Below, piece after piece: positions 13,603-23,539 of a stretch of 24,076 nt of DNA. Origin of the DNA: a virus; the IMG/VR virus record IMGVR_UViG_3300045240_000184, positions 1 through 24,076 of that record. One strand, 5' to 3'. Made by a program: the position numbers and the translations under genes. Position 1 is the stretch's first letter, and each line of letters opens with the position of its first letter. The notes below the pieces were generated by a model, which ran no database searches, had not been told where the DNA came from, and saw only the letters and a program-made list of their open reading frames with translations.

Positions 13603-13666
13603 TAAAAATACGCTATGCTTTGTCCTTAACCAAGATTTTACAGGGTAGTAATCAGTAGTTTCAGTA
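13603..13666 (-). promoter_or_regulatory. Late-type promoter P4 (baseplate operon)
   Basis: On the minus strand: box TACTGAAACTACTG (13666-13653), 19 bp, TTG (13633-13631), 20 bp, TATTTTTA (13610-13603), one mismatch from TAnnTTTG. The same arrangement with the same spacing stands at P1, P2 and P3. Confidence 0.85.
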
Positions 13667-14543: not shown

Positions 14544-15026
14544 TTACTTGTATAAGATTACATAGTTTTTTTTGTCGCGTTTTAGTTTACTGAGCACTTT
14601 CCAGTCGCTATAGCCTTTTTTATCAAAATGCGGAAGGTCTTTAAAGGTTTTCCAATCACCACCCCAATTCCAGTTGTATTTCTTGAAAATTTGGACACAT
14701 TCCTGCCAATCCGAAATTTGGTCACCATCCCAGTCTTTCGCTGTATCCCAAGAAGCCGTTTTGCCATCGATAATAAGACAGATATCTACTGCAAAGCCAT
14801 AATTGTGAATAGATTGGCCACCTTTGGCATTTGTTACTTTTTTTCCAGGTTTAGTTCTGCCGAAAGCATAAAGATCTTCCTGTTCCTGAAATGATCTAAG
14901 ACCTTGTGTAATGCGTACTTTTGCTTTTCCGGTTAGTGCCAAGTCACATTCTTCGATGATTTTGGTAACTTCTTCTCTAACAGAGGGATGTAGTAAATCA
15001 ATGCGATTTTTTGTAGTTTGATCCAT
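14544..15026 (-). CDS. M15 family peptidase, endolysin type
   Basis: This 160-aa protein has no signal peptide. It carries the zinc ligands of the M15B/C D-Ala-D-Ala carboxypeptidase or L-Ala-D-Glu endopeptidase group: SIHNYGFAVD (His74, Asp81) and DLPHFD (His133, with Asp130 as possible catalytic base). The substrate-side motif QGLRSFQEQEDLYAFGRT (residues 41-58) and WGGDWKTFKD (121-130) are also typical of phage endolysins of this class. It would cut peptidoglycan stem peptides once the holin opens the membrane. It is first in a three-gene lysis cassette driven from P3, with a leader of about 195 nt. Confidence 0.9.
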   Translation of the reverse strand: MDQTTKNRIDLLHPSVREEVTKIIEECDLALTGKAKVRITQGLRSFQEQEDLYAFGRTKPGKKVTNAKGGQSIHNYGFAVDICLIIDGKTASWDTAKDWDGDQISDWQECVQIFKKYNWNWGGDWKTFKDLPHFDKKGYSDWKVLSKLKRDKKNYVILYK

Positions 15027-15228: not shown

Positions 15229-15292
15229 TAAAAATACGCCGAAATAGCGCGTTTAAAAAATAATAGGGACTTGTAAATCAGTAGTTTCAGTA
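15229..15292 (-). promoter_or_regulatory. Late-type promoter P3 (lysis cassette)
   Basis: On the minus strand: box TACTGAAACTACTG (15292-15279), 19 bp, TTT in place of TTG (15259-15257), 20 bp, TATTTTTA (15236-15229). It shares GCGTATTTTTACAGTGT with P4 around the -7 and start region. The rest of the 15027-15414 gap holds no gene. Confidence 0.85.
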
Positions 15293-15414: not shown

Positions 15415-15861
15415 TTAAAAACATAGGTTTGTTTTCATCCAGACATTCTTCGCAATTAAATAAATATCATTAAAAGCTACTAGGCGACCATCTGTTGGAG
15501 CTTGATTCCTTGTGTCAACTTTGATCTCTTTGTCGAAAACTATTATAATATATCCATCTTTTGCGAGTTTTCTAATAGATAATAAGTGATTTATTTCATG
15601 TTCAAAGACTATCTTTATTCCTGAAATTTCTTCCATTGATAATTCGACATCCATTATTCCCTTTTTGCTAGTTTTTTCTGGAATTACTTCTTTTAACAGA
15701 TCTAAAACGATCGGATGTTTTAAGTCTAAATTTTTATTACTTCCCCATTTTCTGTTTTTAGATTCTAAATCAACAGGATAGAAATCCCTATTAGTTTTTT
15801 CTTTAATAGTTGAATTACTAATAAATATCCAATCTCCGTTTTCATATAAATGATTTCCCAT
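15415..15861 (-). CDS. Unknown small protein after the toxin, possible immunity
   Basis: This 148-aa soluble protein has no signal peptide. It starts 3 bp after the 144-aa gene and is followed by a terminator. The sequence (ENGDWIFISNSTIKEKTNRDFYPVD, then KKGIMDVELSMEEISGIKIVFEHEINHLLSIRKLAKDGYIIIVFDK) matches no family I know. A single Cys is the second-to-last residue. The role as immunity protein is inferred only from its place directly downstream of a toxin-like gene. Confidence 0.5.
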   Translation of the reverse strand: MGNHLYENGDWIFISNSTIKEKTNRDFYPVDLESKNRKWGSNKNLDLKHPIVLDLLKEVIPEKTSKKGIMDVELSMEEISGIKIVFEHEINHLLSIRKLAKDGYIIIVFDKEIKVDTRNQAPTDGRLVAFNDIYLIAKNVWMKTNLCF

Positions 15862-15864
15862 ATT

Positions 15865-16299
15865 TTATTCTTTATAAACATATTTTAAAGATTGATTGGC
15901 TTTTATGTGCTCTTCAAGAAGTTTTTTAAATCCGATCATATTGTATATCAATCTATCGATTTCATACTCTCTTCCTTTATGATATAAATAATATGTAATT
16001 CCTTTATGTTTAAAATTCTGACTTCCAAATTGTTCTGGGAATTGTTTTCTCAGTTCTTCTTTAAAAGGATTGAAATCAGGATGCTTTAATAATTCATCAA
16101 TTCTATTCTCGAATGCAGGAAGCATTTTCGATATTTCATTTATGTTAATTTCAAAACTATTTTCAGAATAGATACGAAGTTTAATGCTTTTTTTTAGCTC
16201 TGTATTTATATTTAAATTGGAATAATAATTAAATGCTTCTTCAAGATCTGCCCCCCCATATCTTTTTCCGTCTACATTTAAAATGTGTAAATATTTCAT
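15865..16299 (-). CDS. Unknown small protein after the toxin, possible immunity
   Basis: This 144-aa acidic/basic soluble protein starts 6 bp after the 753-aa gene, the usual place of a cognate immunity gene. Its N-terminus (MKYLHILNVDGKRYGGADLEEAFNYYSNLNI) could start a compact alpha/beta fold. The C-terminal part is helical. No known family is recognised. Of the two candidates this is the more likely cognate immunity protein because it is immediately adjacent. Confidence 0.55.
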   Translation of the reverse strand: MKYLHILNVDGKRYGGADLEEAFNYYSNLNINTELKKSIKLRIYSENSFEININEISKMLPAFENRIDELLKHPDFNPFKEELRKQFPEQFGSQNFKHKGITYYLYHKGREYEIDRLIYNMIGFKKLLEEHIKANQSLKYVYKE

Positions 16300-16305
16300 G
16301 ATTAA

Positions 16306-18567
16306 TTATTTAATTAAAATTACTACAATAGATTCTCCTTCACTCACGCTTTTAATTTTTGAAAATCCTTTATTTTTCATGGTGTTGAAAAAATTTGTAC
16401 TTTCAACGGCTTTATTAACATCCCAATAAATATCCATAGATTCCGTAAATTGTTTGTAGCCCAATGATTCGCCACCAGGATATTCTGGTAATTGTTTCCA
16501 TTCCACTCTTATTGATTTAATTTTGTCTCCAAAAATTTCAAATGCTTCATCTGCCCATTTTTGACCTAAACCTCCAACTCCATAAGTATTAAAATCAAAT
16601 TCTAATTCTCCTCCCCAAAGTCTTGCCTTATTATTCCATGCAAATTTTGGATCATCTACTTTCCAAATAATTTCATTTGAATACTCAAATATATCATATT
16701 TTTTATTATTGAATTCTTTGTTTGTGTGAGAAATTAATCCCTCATTTTCATAAGCTTTTAATGTGATTTTTTCTTTGATTTTAGAATCTTCTAGTTTTCC
16801 ACTTTTAATAAACTTCTCAAACTCATTTTCACTCATTTTGCGAACATCAACACCCGTTTGCTTTTCAATTTCGGTAAAAGCTTTTTCAGTTTGTTTTTCT
16901 ATATGAGTGGCATGATCCGTTTCATTTAAGTCATTAAGCACTTTAGCACCTTTTCGACCGTATTTGGCCAGAGTGATTAACAAGTTTAAACTTAAAAAGC
17001 TTAAGTCAGCGCTGATACTAATAGTTGTCCAATTATCAACCAGAACGCCTAAGCCTGCTTCTTTCAATGCTTTTTTTGCACGATCCGTCAGCATTACTAA
17101 ATCGGCAAGTGTTTTAGTTAGCTCTATAACTGCAAGTGTCTTTAATAGTTTTCCAGTTGCTTTTGTCGTTAAAACTTCTATAGCACCATATCCTCCTGTT
17201 AATGTTGTGGCAACGTTAATTACATCCCAAAATGCTTCTTGAGATAGTTCGTCTACTTTGTATTTGATGAATAAAGCAACTTGATTTGAAGCTGCTTCTG
17301 TAGTGCTTTTTTTATCGTTATCTATTTCAATAATAGATTTTACAGTAATAAAATCCATTGGGTTTAGCGGAGCTCCCTCATATGTTTTTTTGCGTTCATT
17401 AGCAGCAGATGGAAACAAACCGCTTGTTGGATAGGCTAAATTATTTCCTAAATTGTTTAAAATAGTAGTAGTATTTTCAAACTTAATTTTGTTCTGGCTC
17501 CAATTGGCAGTTAATTGAATAGTACTTGGCCAATACCCATTAGGAAGGTAAATTTGTTGCTTTGATTCAGGTTTATTTTTGTTGTATCTGCATAAATCCA
17601 TTATTAAAGCTACAAAAGCCCTCCTATGCTCTCCAGAGAATGTTTCGTAAAGTCTCATAACCCATAATGGACGCTCGTATAGTTTTGTGAATAGTTTTTT
17701 GGCATCTTTCTTTTGAAGTGTTTTCAAAATATTTAAAATACCTTGGTCTTCATCACGTCCTCCGATGTCTGAAACATTCTGATCTAAAAGTGTCCAGATA
17801 TCAGCATACATTTGCTGATCTGTTTTAAGTGATGCTAAAATAAAATCAGGTATATCTTCATAGATAATATCTAATTTGTCTTTGTCGTTTCCTGCCTCAG
17901 TTATGATCTTTTTATATTGTTGGATAATTGTTGCTTTAAAGGCTTCAATGTCATAGCCAATAAATTGAGCTAAATATTCTATTCCTTCGTAACTATCAGT
18001 TTCAAATCTAAGAGCTAAGTTCTTTTGAAGATCGAAAATGTCTAAAAGAAAGAAAGTCTTCCCTGGAAAAGATACTTTGAATTCAATGTTTTTTAAATCA
18101 ACAATAGCTTCTAGCAATTGACGATTACAACTAATTTTATATCCCTTAATAATTCCGTTGAAATTTAGAGGAGCATTTTTAGGAAAAGAATCCAGTTGCA
18201 ATTTTTGCGTTTTATTACCGATATTTTTCTTAATCCAAAGTAATATAGATACTAGCGGTGATATTGATGCCGTTACCACTACTTCTTTTAACGCAATTGC
18301 ATTTGTATATTGATAATGATCCTCATTATTTAGTATATAGCGGTCTCCTTTTAATGTGACTTCGTCTGGTTTTTTAGAATTTTTTGCATATTTCGCATCA
18401 AGTTCTTTGGCTGTAGCATAATGATCTTTAAGAAGCTTTTCCCATTCAGCAGCATTTTTATCGTCTTCTATTTGCTGACGCCAAATACCAATCATAATTT
18501 GCCTGAATCGAGCCATTTCGGCAGGACTGGTATCTTCTAGTTCTATTGTATGGTTTTTAATAATCAT
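16306..18567 (-). CDS. Polymorphic-toxin-like protein in the tape-measure position
   Basis: This 753-aa protein follows the putative chaperone gene by 39 bp. Residues 1-65 are helical and charged (AEMARFRQIMIGIWRQQIEDDKNAAEWEKLL). Residues 93-101 read LKEVVVTAS, a motif otherwise seen near the start of Bacteroidota TonB-receptor plugs and in some phage virion proteins. Residues 100-400 are mixed alpha/beta and unrecognised. Residues about 430-540 are hydrophobic or amphipathic helices like the pre-toxin stretches of polymorphic toxins. Residues about 610-753 form a compact C-terminal domain ending GYKQFTESMDIYW...KNKGFSKIKSVSEGESIVVILIK, a layout I associate with toxin tips but cannot name. 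Two small genes and a terminator follow. It could be a toxin carried by the tail, a toxin-tipped tape measure, or an unusual tape measure alone. Confidence 0.6.
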   Translation of the reverse strand: MIIKNHTIELEDTSPAEMARFRQIMIGIWRQQIEDDKNAAEWEKLLKDHYATAKELDAKYAKNSKKPDEVTLKGDRYILNNEDHYQYTNAIALKEVVVTASISPLVSILLWIKKNIGNKTQKLQLDSFPKNAPLNFNGIIKGYKISCNRQLLEAIVDLKNIEFKVSFPGKTFFLLDIFDLQKNLALRFETDSYEGIEYLAQFIGYDIEAFKATIIQQYKKIITEAGNDKDKLDIIYEDIPDFILASLKTDQQMYADIWTLLDQNVSDIGGRDEDQGILNILKTLQKKDAKKLFTKLYERPLWVMRLYETFSGEHRRAFVALIMDLCRYNKNKPESKQQIYLPNGYWPSTIQLTANWSQNKIKFENTTTILNNLGNNLAYPTSGLFPSAANERKKTYEGAPLNPMDFITVKSIIEIDNDKKSTTEAASNQVALFIKYKVDELSQEAFWDVINVATTLTGGYGAIEVLTTKATGKLLKTLAVIELTKTLADLVMLTDRAKKALKEAGLGVLVDNWTTISISADLSFLSLNLLITLAKYGRKGAKVLNDLNETDHATHIEKQTEKAFTEIEKQTGVDVRKMSENEFEKFIKSGKLEDSKIKEKITLKAYENEGLISHTNKEFNNKKYDIFEYSNEIIWKVDDPKFAWNNKARLWGGELEFDFNTYGVGGLGQKWADEAFEIFGDKIKSIRVEWKQLPEYPGGESLGYKQFTESMDIYWDVNKAVESTNFFNTMKNKGFSKIKSVSEGESIVVILIK

Positions 18568-19936: not shown

Positions 19937-21334
19937 TTATGCTTTATCGATTCCGAAAGGATTTTTAAATCCTAAATCGACCATAATTTTACGAGCCGTT
20001 CCTATTGGCGTGATTTCAGCTTTTACTTTTAATTCTGACGTTGCCAAAATGTTTTGTTTAGGATCTACATACACATCAAAATCAGAAACTTCCTGATTGG
20101 CAACCATTCCTTCTAAAGCGCTTCTGCATAAACCTTCGAAGTTTTTTGAAACCGATTGAGGTAACTTACCATCAATATCTACTAAAACTGGAGAAGCTAA
20201 TTTTGGTAATAAAGTAGTACGCAATAAACGTGTTGCTTTGTTAATAGTACGGTTGTTTTCTACATAAGCAAAGTCAGACGTACCTATAGTACAAGTGTGG
20301 CTGTCATTAAAATAAAGACCAGGTAAACCAGTGTGTGTTTTTACGAAAATGTATCTTTTTTCATTTAATTCTCTTAAAGTTCCAAGATCTTTAATTTCTT
20401 GTCCTCCAATAAAACCAGCTTTTGCAAAACCTTCACCAGTAAGGTTGAATTTTTCGATCCAGGCAATGTTCTCAGATACTTTTGCTCTTGAGATGGCACC
20501 CAATGCCAACCCAACTGCTGCAGTATTTTTGTATGAATCTTTGAAAACGAATTGAAGAATGGCTCCATTTTCTGTTTTAAGGGTATCACTATTACTCACA
20601 CCATAGACATTTAAGGAGCCATCAGGGTGATTTAGTTTAACTAATTTTTCGTTAGGAGCTAAAGTGTAAGGTTTATGAAAAGTGTAAGGTGCATCCCCTG
20701 ATGTTGGTGGTGGTGATGTTGACGGTATTGAGCCTTTTTGAAATAACTTTAGTTCAAACGCTTTTTCAACATCCATTGCAATCACAACTGATACGTTTTC
20801 TGCATTTAATTCTGCTAAATTGCGGGCTTTATAAGCATAAAAACCTTTCCCTTCCAGAATGACTTCAAAAGGCATAAAATTTGTATATCCTAATTGTGCT
20901 TGTTGTTGTGCTTTTAAAACGGCCTCTTGTGTTTGTTCAAATGCTGTTTCCCCAGAATAAATAATTGCCAATTGACGAATGTTTCCGTTTGCTTTTTCTT
21001 GCATATCTAATGCTTTTGCGGCAACTTTTTCATAAGAATCTGCATCTGTTTTCATGATGTACAGATCACCGGAAGGATTCATTCTGAAAAATTGCTGAAT
21101 CTGATAGTAAGCAGATTGTCCTTCTATATCATATGCTGCTGTAATCCCAATGGCTTCAGCATCTTCTAATGAAGCTAAACGTTTTACTGTGTTTGATTCT
21201 AGTTTTAATTTTAACTCATCTGGAAATGTAGAAGGTTCATCAAAAAGTAATCCTGAAACCATGTCCTGCTCTGGATTTCTTCTTCCTAATCCGCCTGATA
21301 GTTTGGTAATCACTACATCGTTTAATGTACTCAT
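19937..21334 (-). CDS. Contractile tail sheath protein (DUF2586-like)
   Basis: This 465-aa protein begins MSTLNDVVITKLSGGLGRRNP. The C-terminal part has the sheath signature: YVENNRTINKATRLLRTTLLPKLASPVLVDIDGKLPQSVSKNFEGLC, then a closing beta region (SELKVKAEITPIGTARKIMVDLGFKNPF). The middle holds a Pro/Ser/Gly-rich linker (SIPSTSPPPTSGDAP, about residues 202-216) followed by about 50 residues that look like an inserted surface segment. It is the strongest evidence that this is a contractile, not a siphovirus-type, tail. It is driven from P2 with a leader of about 225 nt. Confidence 0.85.
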   Translation of the reverse strand: MSTLNDVVITKLSGGLGRRNPEQDMVSGLLFDEPSTFPDELKLKLESNTVKRLASLEDAEAIGITAAYDIEGQSAYYQIQQFFRMNPSGDLYIMKTDADSYEKVAAKALDMQEKANGNIRQLAIIYSGETAFEQTQEAVLKAQQQAQLGYTNFMPFEVILEGKGFYAYKARNLAELNAENVSVVIAMDVEKAFELKLFQKGSIPSTSPPPTSGDAPYTFHKPYTLAPNEKLVKLNHPDGSLNVYGVSNSDTLKTENGAILQFVFKDSYKNTAAVGLALGAISRAKVSENIAWIEKFNLTGEGFAKAGFIGGQEIKDLGTLRELNEKRYIFVKTHTGLPGLYFNDSHTCTIGTSDFAYVENNRTINKATRLLRTTLLPKLASPVLVDIDGKLPQSVSKNFEGLCRSALEGMVANQEVSDFDVYVDPKQNILATSELKVKAEITPIGTARKIMVDLGFKNPFGIDKA

Positions 21335-21566: not shown

Positions 21567-21630
21567 CAAATTTAAGGATCAAGGTTATTTTTTCCAATTA
21601 TTTTGATTGTCAAAACCAGTAGTTTCAGTG
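21567..21630 (-). promoter_or_regulatory. Late-type promoter P2 (sheath-tube)
   Basis: On the minus strand: box CACTGAAACTACTG (21630-21617), 19 bp, TTG (21597-21595), 20 bp, TAAATTTG (21574-21567), a perfect TAnnTTTG. The box lies 2 bp beyond the stop codon of the 59-aa gene. Confidence 0.9.
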
Positions 21631-21631
21631 C

Positions 21632-21811
21632 TTAAACTTTTGTTGCTGTAGAGAGACCTTCATTTATAATAGTATAAATGGTGCGTTCTGTTAAGAATAA
21701 AGTATCGGAAAGTTCTGAAACTACAACTTTCATTTGTTTAGCTTGATTTCTATTTAGATAGTTAATAACATAATCTCTTCTTTTGTCTAATAGTGTTTGG
21801 CTTCTTCTCAT
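21632..21811 (-). CDS. 59-aa HTH-like protein, candidate late activator
   Basis: The reading MRRSQTLLDKRRDYVINYLN runs from ATG at 21811 to TAA at 21632. It is basic at the N-terminus. The part VVVSELSDTLFLTERTIYTI (residues 29-48) fits a helix-turn-helix: 'VSELSDTLFLTERTIYTIINEG' has the first helix, turn and recognition helix. The pattern RRDYVINxL...LSDTLFLTERTIYTII resembles small HTH proteins beside Bacteroidota phage-like tail genes; this is from memory, not a search. It follows the putative tail-terminator gene by 68 bp in the P1 unit and ends next to the P2 box, so it may bind the late boxes. Confidence 0.6.
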   Translation of the reverse strand: MRRSQTLLDKRRDYVINYLNRNQAKQMKVVVSELSDTLFLTERTIYTIINEGLSTATKV

Positions 21812-21879: not shown

Positions 21880-22455
21880 TTAATTTGTGTGGTCTAAATC
21901 AATTGTTCCTTCAACCTGATTAGGGTTTATTCCTATTATTCCTGAGGTTAAATCATATCCAAATGCTTCTAATTCTTCATTGCTTAAGCCATTATTGAAA
22001 AGGATGTATTTCTTTTTTAAGATGTTTTCTATTAATGTCGTTTTATAAGTGATCTCCCAAATGAAAAAATCATTTTTGTTCCAGTAAGTGTGTTCGTTCG
22101 TGCATTGTTTTTCTCTTATCTTAAATGTTGAATTAGTATCTATAGCTGTATTACTGTTGTTTTTAGACAATATGGCTTGGTCTATTCGTTGAGCAATATC
22201 GAATGCATTTGCATAACTTGTTGAAGAAATAGTTTCTACAGGTAATATAATATACAGGCAAAATGATACATCTGCTTTGTAGTTTTTTTCAGAAGATGTT
22301 TCCCAGTCTACGGTATCGTATTTAAACATTACTACCGGTGTTTCAATAGAAGCTTTAAAAATAGCATCACTATAAAGTTGAACTGTTGGTGCATTAGAAG
22401 TGAACTCCGTTTCGATTGCGTTCTTTTTTTCGGTATAAAAATCTTTTAGAATCAT
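21880..22455 (-). CDS. Putative tail terminator/completion protein
   Basis: From the ATG at 22455 the protein is 191 aa (MILKDFYTEKKNAIETEF). An upstream TTG at 22476 is in frame, but it overlaps the predicted -7 element, so it would lie before the transcript start. The layout, beginning with a short helix and then VVMFKYDTVDWETSSEKNYKADVSFCLYIILP and FKIREKQCTNEHTYWNKNDFFIWEITYKTTL, resembles tail-completion proteins that cap the tail tube (gpU/Gp37-like: about 150-190 aa, mixed strands, 'a.v...f.l.v'). It is the first gene of the tail set, under P1. Confidence 0.5.
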   Translation of the reverse strand: MILKDFYTEKKNAIETEFTSNAPTVQLYSDAIFKASIETPVVMFKYDTVDWETSSEKNYKADVSFCLYIILPVETISSTSYANAFDIAQRIDQAILSKNNSNTAIDTNSTFKIREKQCTNEHTYWNKNDFFIWEITYKTTLIENILKKKYILFNNGLSNEELEAFGYDLTSGIIGINPNQVEGTIDLDHTN

Positions 22456-22473
22456 ATGGTGGATTATTTTTGA

Positions 22474-22538
22474 CAAATATACAACATATGTTTTAATATT
22501 TGCAACATATTACACTAAAAAATGCAGTAATTTCAGTA
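22474..22538 (-). promoter_or_regulatory. Late-type promoter P1 with repressor sites
   Basis: On the minus strand: box TACTGAAATTACTG (22538-22525), 19 bp, TTG (22505-22503), 21 bp, TATATTTG (22481-22474), a perfect TAnnTTTG. Two CAACATAT sites (+ strand 22482-22489 and 22503-22510) cover the region next to the -7 and the -33. The same 8-mer stands in the repressor promoter, so P1 is probably repressed by the S24 protein and activated through the box. Confidence 0.88.
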
Positions 22539-22663: not shown

Positions 22664-22716
22664 TAGTTTTGCAACATATAGTGGAATATGTAATATTTAT
22701 TAAAACATATTACATG
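22664..22716 (+). promoter_or_regulatory. Repressor promoter and operator region
   Basis: TAGTTTTG (22664-22671) is a perfect TAnnTTTG. Right after it come CAACATAT (22672-22679), an ACATAT/ATATGT inverted pair (22674-22679, 22686-22691), and a 9-bp inverted repeat ATGTAATAT (22688-22696) with ATATTACAT (22707-22715). Their position over the likely start site suggests autoregulation. Confidence 0.7.
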
Positions 22717-22726
22717 ATAAAAACAA

Positions 22727-23539
22727 ATGCAATACAAGATGGAAATACATACTAAGATAAAACGTATTATAGATGAGATGAAGTTAAATAATAACTCATT
22801 TGCGAAGTTAATAGGAGTAACCAGTACTACAATTGATAGTATTACTATTGGAAGATTGCAATCTGACGGAGAAAGAAAAAGGACAAAACCTGGTTTTGAT
22901 TTGCTTCAAAGTATCATTACGCATTGTAATGTAAACCCGGACTATTTTTTTGGAAATAGTGATGAAATTTTTGCTAACAAAACAAATAGTGAAGTTGGTT
23001 TAAATTTACCCAAGATTATAACCGTAAACGAAGAGGGTGAGGAGAACATTAATTTTGTTGGTGTAAAAGCAAGAGCAGGCTATTTAGACGGCTATTCAGA
23101 TCCGGAATATATGGAAAGTCTTCCGTCATTCAGCATGCCAATGTTAAAGAACGGAACTTACAGATGTTTTGAAATAAAAGGGAATTCGATGTCTACAACG
23201 ATTCATGACGGCGATTACCTTTTTGGAAAATATGTTGATAATTTTGATGATATATTAGATGGAAGAATTTATGTTATTATCAGTAAGAATGATGGAGTAG
23301 TGGTAAAAAGGGTTTTAAACCGAATTAGAGAAAGCGGAAAATTAATCCTGAAATCAGATAACAGAGACGGAAATTATCCAATGTATTCTATTTATGCCGA
23401 GGATATTCTGGAAGTTTGGTACGCAAGTATGTACGCTTCTAAACAAATGCCAGATCCAATCAATATTTATGAAAAAATTCATGATCTCGAAAGTAAATTC
23501 TATGAAATGGAAGAGACTTTGAAAAAGAAGCTGAACTAA
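22727..23539 (+). CDS. XRE-S24 self-cleaving repressor (CI/LexA type)
   Basis: This 270-aa protein has an N-terminal helix-turn-helix (SFAKLIGVTSTTIDSITIGR, residues 24-43) and a C-terminal S24 peptidase domain: Ala117-Gly118 cleavage site in KARAGYL, nucleophile Ser154 in KGNSMSTTI, and Lys194 in GVVVKRV. The C-terminal tail (IHDLESKFYEMEETLKKKLN) is a coiled coil that could help dimerisation. Such repressors are cleaved when RecA is activated by DNA damage. A second ATG lies at codon 5. It is divergent from the tail genes and 271 bp away; the shared CAACATAT sites link it to P1. Confidence 0.9.
   Translation: MQYKMEIHTKIKRIIDEMKLNNNSFAKLIGVTSTTIDSITIGRLQSDGERKRTKPGFDLLQSIITHCNVNPDYFFGNSDEIFANKTNSEVGLNLPKIITVNEEGEENINFVGVKARAGYLDGYSDPEYMESLPSFSMPMLKNGTYRCFEIKGNSMSTTIHDGDYLFGKYVDNFDDILDGRIYVIISKNDGVVVKRVLNRIRESGKLILKSDNRDGNYPMYSIYAEDILEVWYASMYASKQMPDPINIYEKIHDLESKFYEMEETLKKKLN

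Follow-up and report, generated by a model that had tools for sequence, protein, structure and literature searches.

A 59-amino-acid helix-turn-helix protein as the predicted activator of a Flavobacterium tailocin-type element

The virus record IMGVR_UViG_3300045240_000184 of IMG/VR, analysed here over its full length of 24,076 nucleotides (the window, that is, the entire 24-kb record), carries genes that are best read as those of a phage-tail-like (tailocin-type) particle of Flavobacterium. The question raised by this locus is what turns on its tail genes, which are distributed over several transcription units. A first-pass annotation, made from the letters alone, had singled out a short, easily overlooked gene in the unit behind promoter P1 (positions 21632-21811, minus strand), which looked like a helix-turn-helix (HTH) protein of 59 amino acids and might be the activator. 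The conservation of its frame, a three-helix AlphaFold2 model and its co-occurrence with a 14-bp promoter box suggest that this protein is quite probably a dedicated transcription activator of the element, acting through the box. In the open-access literature searched, no tailocin activator or regulator is described for Flavobacterium or other Bacteroidota. If the reading is true, it supplies all parts of a predicted switch, from repressor and activator to box and regulon, for a tail-like particle common in Flavobacterium, with an activator barely larger than a bare HTH.

The 59-amino-acid gene and its product

The open reading frame (ORF) begins with ATG and encodes the 59-residue product MRRSQTLLDKRRDYVINYLNRNQAKQMKVVVSELSDTLFLTERTIYTIINEGLSTATKV. 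On its own such an ORF says little, because the window is AT-rich, short ORFs are common in it, and it contains 74 ORFs of at least 40 amino acids. That this one is more than chance follows from its conservation among relatives, which were found at 32 IMG/VR loci and 30 GTDB genome loci, nearly all of them Flavobacterium. None of the 42 distinct alignment rows interrupts the frame over the 52 aligned codons, and none leaves any of the other five frames open. Variable columns number 22, 17 and 46 of 52 at the first, second and third codon positions, respectively, and the pooled ratio of nonsynonymous to synonymous polymorphism (pN/pS) of the frame is 0.107. Judged by this substitution pattern, the ORF is a real gene under strong purifying selection, and the coding constraint for which the first-pass annotation had proposed to look in relatives is present.

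The gene is separated from the preceding gene, which encodes 198 amino acids, by 70 bp containing no TAnnTTTG and is therefore part of the P1 unit, where it had originally been placed. It ends beside the box of the next promoter, P2 (21617-21630), as had been claimed, although the spacing given then, 2 bp, applies to most relatives and not to the window, in which the box begins 1 bp past the stop codon.

The AlphaFold2 model of the protein has helices at residues 3-21, 27-38 and 42-57 with a mean predicted local distance difference test (pLDDT) score of 85; as modelled, it is a three-helix HTH, in keeping with its first description. The segment FLTERTIY, invariant in alignment A1 of the protein, is likely its recognition helix. 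Fold searches with the model return homeodomain-like and Mor-family HTHs; their E-values are weak, which is to be expected at a length of 59 residues. The protein has no significant family in Pfam, PHROGs or NCBIfam and only chance-level matches to PDB sequences; none of the libraries searched gives the family a name.

The box and its place at promoters

The box has the 14-bp consensus (T/C)ACTGAAAYTACTG. Relatives were scanned for it with TACTGAAACTACTG, at most one mismatch being allowed in the resulting set of 131 boxes, and the search was made without reference to promoters. Positions 3-4, 6-8, 11 and 14 are invariant across 127 copies. In relatives the box precedes tail units and points the same way with respect to the unit each time. 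In 126 of the 131 cases TAnnTTT, the -7 element of Bacteroidota, follows the start of the box at a distance of exactly 56 or 57 bp. Across 29 loci this spacing is 57 bp at P1 (26 of 27) and 56 bp at P2 and P4 (all).

The -7 element of F. johnsoniae spans T-12 to G-5 (PMC6847099). By that spacing, and with start sites deduced from it, the box occupies -68 to -55 with its centre at about -61.5, or about -62.5 at P1. Class I activators such as CRP sit at -61.5. By analogy, the box would thus hold a classic activator position. The placement also bears on whether the 59-amino-acid protein might bind the box but repress, or be merely an accessory architectural protein. In favour of such roles, the protein is very small, no activation surface is obvious in it outside the HTH, and Cro-like repressors are numerous among the small HTH proteins of phages. 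However, a fixed position near -61.5 at every unit, those for lysis and sheath included, suits contact with polymerase rather than a steric block, and a repressor encoded inside the P1 unit would shut the tail genes off at induction. A repressing or architectural role is therefore highly improbable, and activation is the preferred reading.

All four units in the window (P1 to P4, all on the minus strand) carry a box, and further boxes lie outside the window. The P1 box (TACTGAAATTACTG, 22525-22538), whose presence had been noted in the first-pass annotation and which is kept in 27 of the 29 loci examined, stands 57 bp before the -7 element TATATTTG (22474-22481); the latter adjoins the palindrome AACATATGTT, a putative operator of the S24 repressor described below. 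The P2 box (CACTGAAACTACTG) precedes by 56 bp the -7 element TAAATTTG (21567-21574) of the sheath/tube unit. The P3 box (TACTGAAACTACTG, 15279-15292; -7 element at 15236-15229) serves the endolysin unit (14544-15026, an M15 peptidase), and the P4 box (TACTGAAACTACTG, 13653-13666; -7 element at 13610-13603) serves the baseplate/fibre unit, which encodes a gp25-like protein and baseplate proteins. An Rfam scan of the window returned nothing. Two boxes of one relative (L148+L149, genome G001, at 33011 and 33023 in joined coordinates) stand back to back on opposite strands, 12 bp apart, where they would drive divergent units, one of which begins with a 1329-amino-acid protein; this arrangement recurs in other genomes.

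Co-occurrence and the predicted switch

Among 249 Flavobacterium genomes, the 59-amino-acid gene (counted as present at E<1e-30) occurs in 19. The box together with its -7 element occurs in 20, namely the same 19 and G222, whose single stray match was dismissed as chance because the surrounding region contains no element genes; a reversed control pattern has 0 matches in the 249 genomes. The sheath family is found in 36 genomes, and the 17 of these that lack the gene also lack the box. In IMG/VR, 50 contigs carry the box with its -7 element and 29 of them carry the gene; the other 21 comprise one 9-kb element fragment that ends before the gene and 20 single matches without element genes. Every IMG/VR contig with at least two boxes carries the gene. 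The joint presence that the first-pass annotation had suggested searching for is thus near-perfect in both collections, and the gene and the 14-bp box form a ready signature for finding such elements.

The same distribution bears on the possibility that a host factor, or some other and unrecognised element protein, binds the box. Several element proteins match no family, which favours a binder of the latter kind. A general host regulator, on the other hand, is unlikely because the box with its -7 element is absent from element-free genomes, the one stray match aside, and the other protein of the P1 unit, of 198 amino acids, was rejected as the activator for its tail-terminator fold. We regard a binder of either kind as improbable.

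A further candidate is the S24 (CI/LexA-like) repressor (22727-23539, plus strand), which is encoded divergently from the P1 unit. It has a CI-like N-terminus and a Peptidase_S24 domain (PF00717, E 1.7e-10) with an Ala-Gly site and Ser/Lys motifs (RAGY, GNSM, VVKR). Its putative operators, to which no strand is assigned, are a conserved block of the P1 consensus at 22483-22510 (AACATATGTT at 22483-22492, AACATAT at 22504-22510) and AACATAT/ATATGT repeats before the repressor gene (22673-22710). If the box were instead the S24 operator, the small HTH protein would do something else. In favour of this, the repressor is encoded by the element itself and has an HTH whose conservation in Flavobacterium matches that of the 59-amino-acid protein. 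However, it has AACATAT-type palindromes of its own, which overlap P1 and its own promoter and are separate from the box, and the boxes of P2-P4 are placed about 42 bp upstream of the -7 element, a site from which a repressor would not keep polymerase off the promoter. In genome G005, which carries both boxes and the HTH gene, the best S24 relative reaches only 40% and resembles the generic chromosomal one of element-free genomes. In G246 the S24 frame is broken (G246:C1:2091540-2092321) and the boxed units persist. Conversely, an S24 relative of 60% is found without any such box in six Flavobacteriaceae loci (L176-L181). The repressor was rejected as the box binder on account of its separate sites, the geometry and the box-bearing genomes without an intact close S24, and we consider this explanation very improbable.

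The proposal of a 59-residue activator is supported by coding constraint, the HTH fold, co-occurrence, the fixed box spacing and the disfavoured alternatives; we infer binding of the protein to the box, activation, feedback and the DNA-damage trigger. In the uninduced state, the divergent S24 repressor would sit on the AACATAT-type sites at P1 and block the unit encoding the terminator and the activator. Self-cleavage of the repressor, presumably on DNA damage, would open P1, and both proteins would be made. The HTH protein would then bind (T/C)ACTGAAAYTACTG centred at about -61.5 and recruit RNA polymerase to the promoters of the sheath/tube (P2), lysis (P3) and baseplate/fibre (P4) units and to distal promoters. 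By way of the P1 box, its own synthesis would likewise be reinforced in a positive feedback loop.

Several points weigh against this proposal. Because the genomes are related to one another and have a single element type in common, co-occurrence ties the box to the element and not to the 59-amino-acid gene alone. No other activator was found in the element, yet some of its proteins have no assigned function, and the structure models cover only the two P1 proteins. Relatives in phages (L031, L033) and in L176-L181 have the gene without the box; family members there must therefore bind other sequences.

The element, its relatives and known systems

The gene content agrees with a contractile tailocin: a DUF2586 tail sheath (19937-21334, minus strand; PF10758, E 3.1e-66; phrog_907), a tube, a gp25-like protein, a holin, an endolysin and, by fold, a terminator. 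The last is encoded by the first P1-unit gene (198 amino acids; 21880-22476, minus strand), whose AlphaFold2 model has lambda gpU, the monocin cap, the pyocin R2 collar and the Mu terminator among its Foldseek matches. Its real start is probably an ATG near 22453, because the listed TTG falls inside the -7 element. Among the scanned ORFs of the window and of a 40-kb relative, which are part of all ORFs and include several without a family, no capsid, portal, terminase or integrase gene was recognised. Between P2 and P3, a 753-amino-acid protein (16306-18567, minus strand) keeps its start among relatives and differs in its C-terminal part, and the small ORFs that follow it (15415-16299, minus strand) are found in few relatives; together they look like an exchangeable cargo-plus-immunity slot. 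One relative (L061) has the terminator, HTH and S24 genes and is missing the sheath, tube and other tail genes; it is possibly a decayed copy of the element.

Outside the element, the S24 relative of L176-L181 is divergent from an HTH relative of 51-52 amino acids. No sheath was found in the 20 kb around this pair, and some copies adjoin holin-like, lysin-like or tail-collar-like genes. Located around 9-11 kb of these loci, the pair has a similar chromosomal position in several Flavobacteriaceae, and one genome (G489) holds both such a pair (C47) and a tail element (C10). Since the pair persists in these loci, it seems to be the switch's stable core. The recognition segment of the HTH relative reads FISEKTI in five of the six, versus FLTERTI, and a different box is therefore expected there. 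The relative at L175 reads FVSERTI, and drifted boxes, including one at P1, were found there at 55/56 bp. A search for the box in L177-L181, which have a different recognition helix, in Mu-like prophages and in phage L031 found none.

Weak relatives of 69-76 amino acids (hhalign E 8.7e-9) occur in Mu-like Flavobacterium prophages (L150, 6476-6706; L151, 9836-10063; L156, 9941-10171; L155, 10184-10393), near the position that mor takes in the gene order of Mu. Repeats like ACAANNNTTG were seen by eye before the late promoter of these prophages and are a lead only. The lytic Chryseobacterium phage MA9V-3 encodes another relative, whose annotation is that of a hypothetical protein; none was found on the plasmids searched. 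Tentatively, and with somewhat less than even confidence, the 59-amino-acid protein may be placed in an unnamed family of HTH activators of 51-76 amino acids that switch on late genes in mobile elements throughout the Bacteroidota, each having a box of its own. Such a family would span tailocins, Mu-like prophages, lytic phages and repressor-plus-lysis loci, and could perhaps, at the same tentative level, fill the role of Mor/C, Ogr and PrtN in Proteobacteria.

Of the known systems, the Mu late activator C serves several late promoters (lys, I, P and mom; PMC4461284). The 59-amino-acid protein would resemble Mor/C in role, as a small element-encoded HTH protein predicted to activate several late promoters. 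Mor-family models in BFVD match it in Foldseek (query TM-score, TMq, 0.72; root-mean-square deviation 1.3; E 0.18), which may reflect a partial likeness in fold; a generic three-helix HTH has homeodomain matches as well. Unlike Mor, it is little more than an HTH, and it has no Mor-family sequence match in Pfam at E<=1. The element repressor resembles the non-canonical LexA/S24 repressors of Bacteroidetes (PMC8565304) in being an S24 protein with a CI-like N-terminus, an Ala-Gly site and Ser/Lys motifs, and differs from them in its putative sites, which are AACATAT palindromes.

The closest logic is that of the R/F pyocins of P. aeruginosa, in which the self-cleaving repressor PrtR controls the activator gene prtN and PrtN binds the P-box (PMC8609362). 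The present system would share the repressor-controlled activator, and it likewise has a conserved box at the promoters of a tail-type cluster with lysis genes. The present box, predicted to be bound by the 59-amino-acid protein, keeps its fixed distance from TAnnTTT in all but five of the 131 copies. The S24 gene is divergent from the P1 unit, sites resembling operators are found at the -7 element of P1, and cleavage of the encoded repressor is predicted from its motifs. Unlike PrtN, however, the protein matches no pyocin-activator model (hmmscan, Pfam and NCBIfam, E<=1), and, unlike in the pyocins, the activator has only 59 amino acids and is encoded inside a structural operon, and boxes stand at four promoters of the window, that of the activator itself included, and at further places outside it. 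By analogy, the switch is best read as PrtR/PrtN/P-box logic with an unrelated and unusually small activator; if this is true, a pyocin-type circuit arose with unrelated parts in another phylum.
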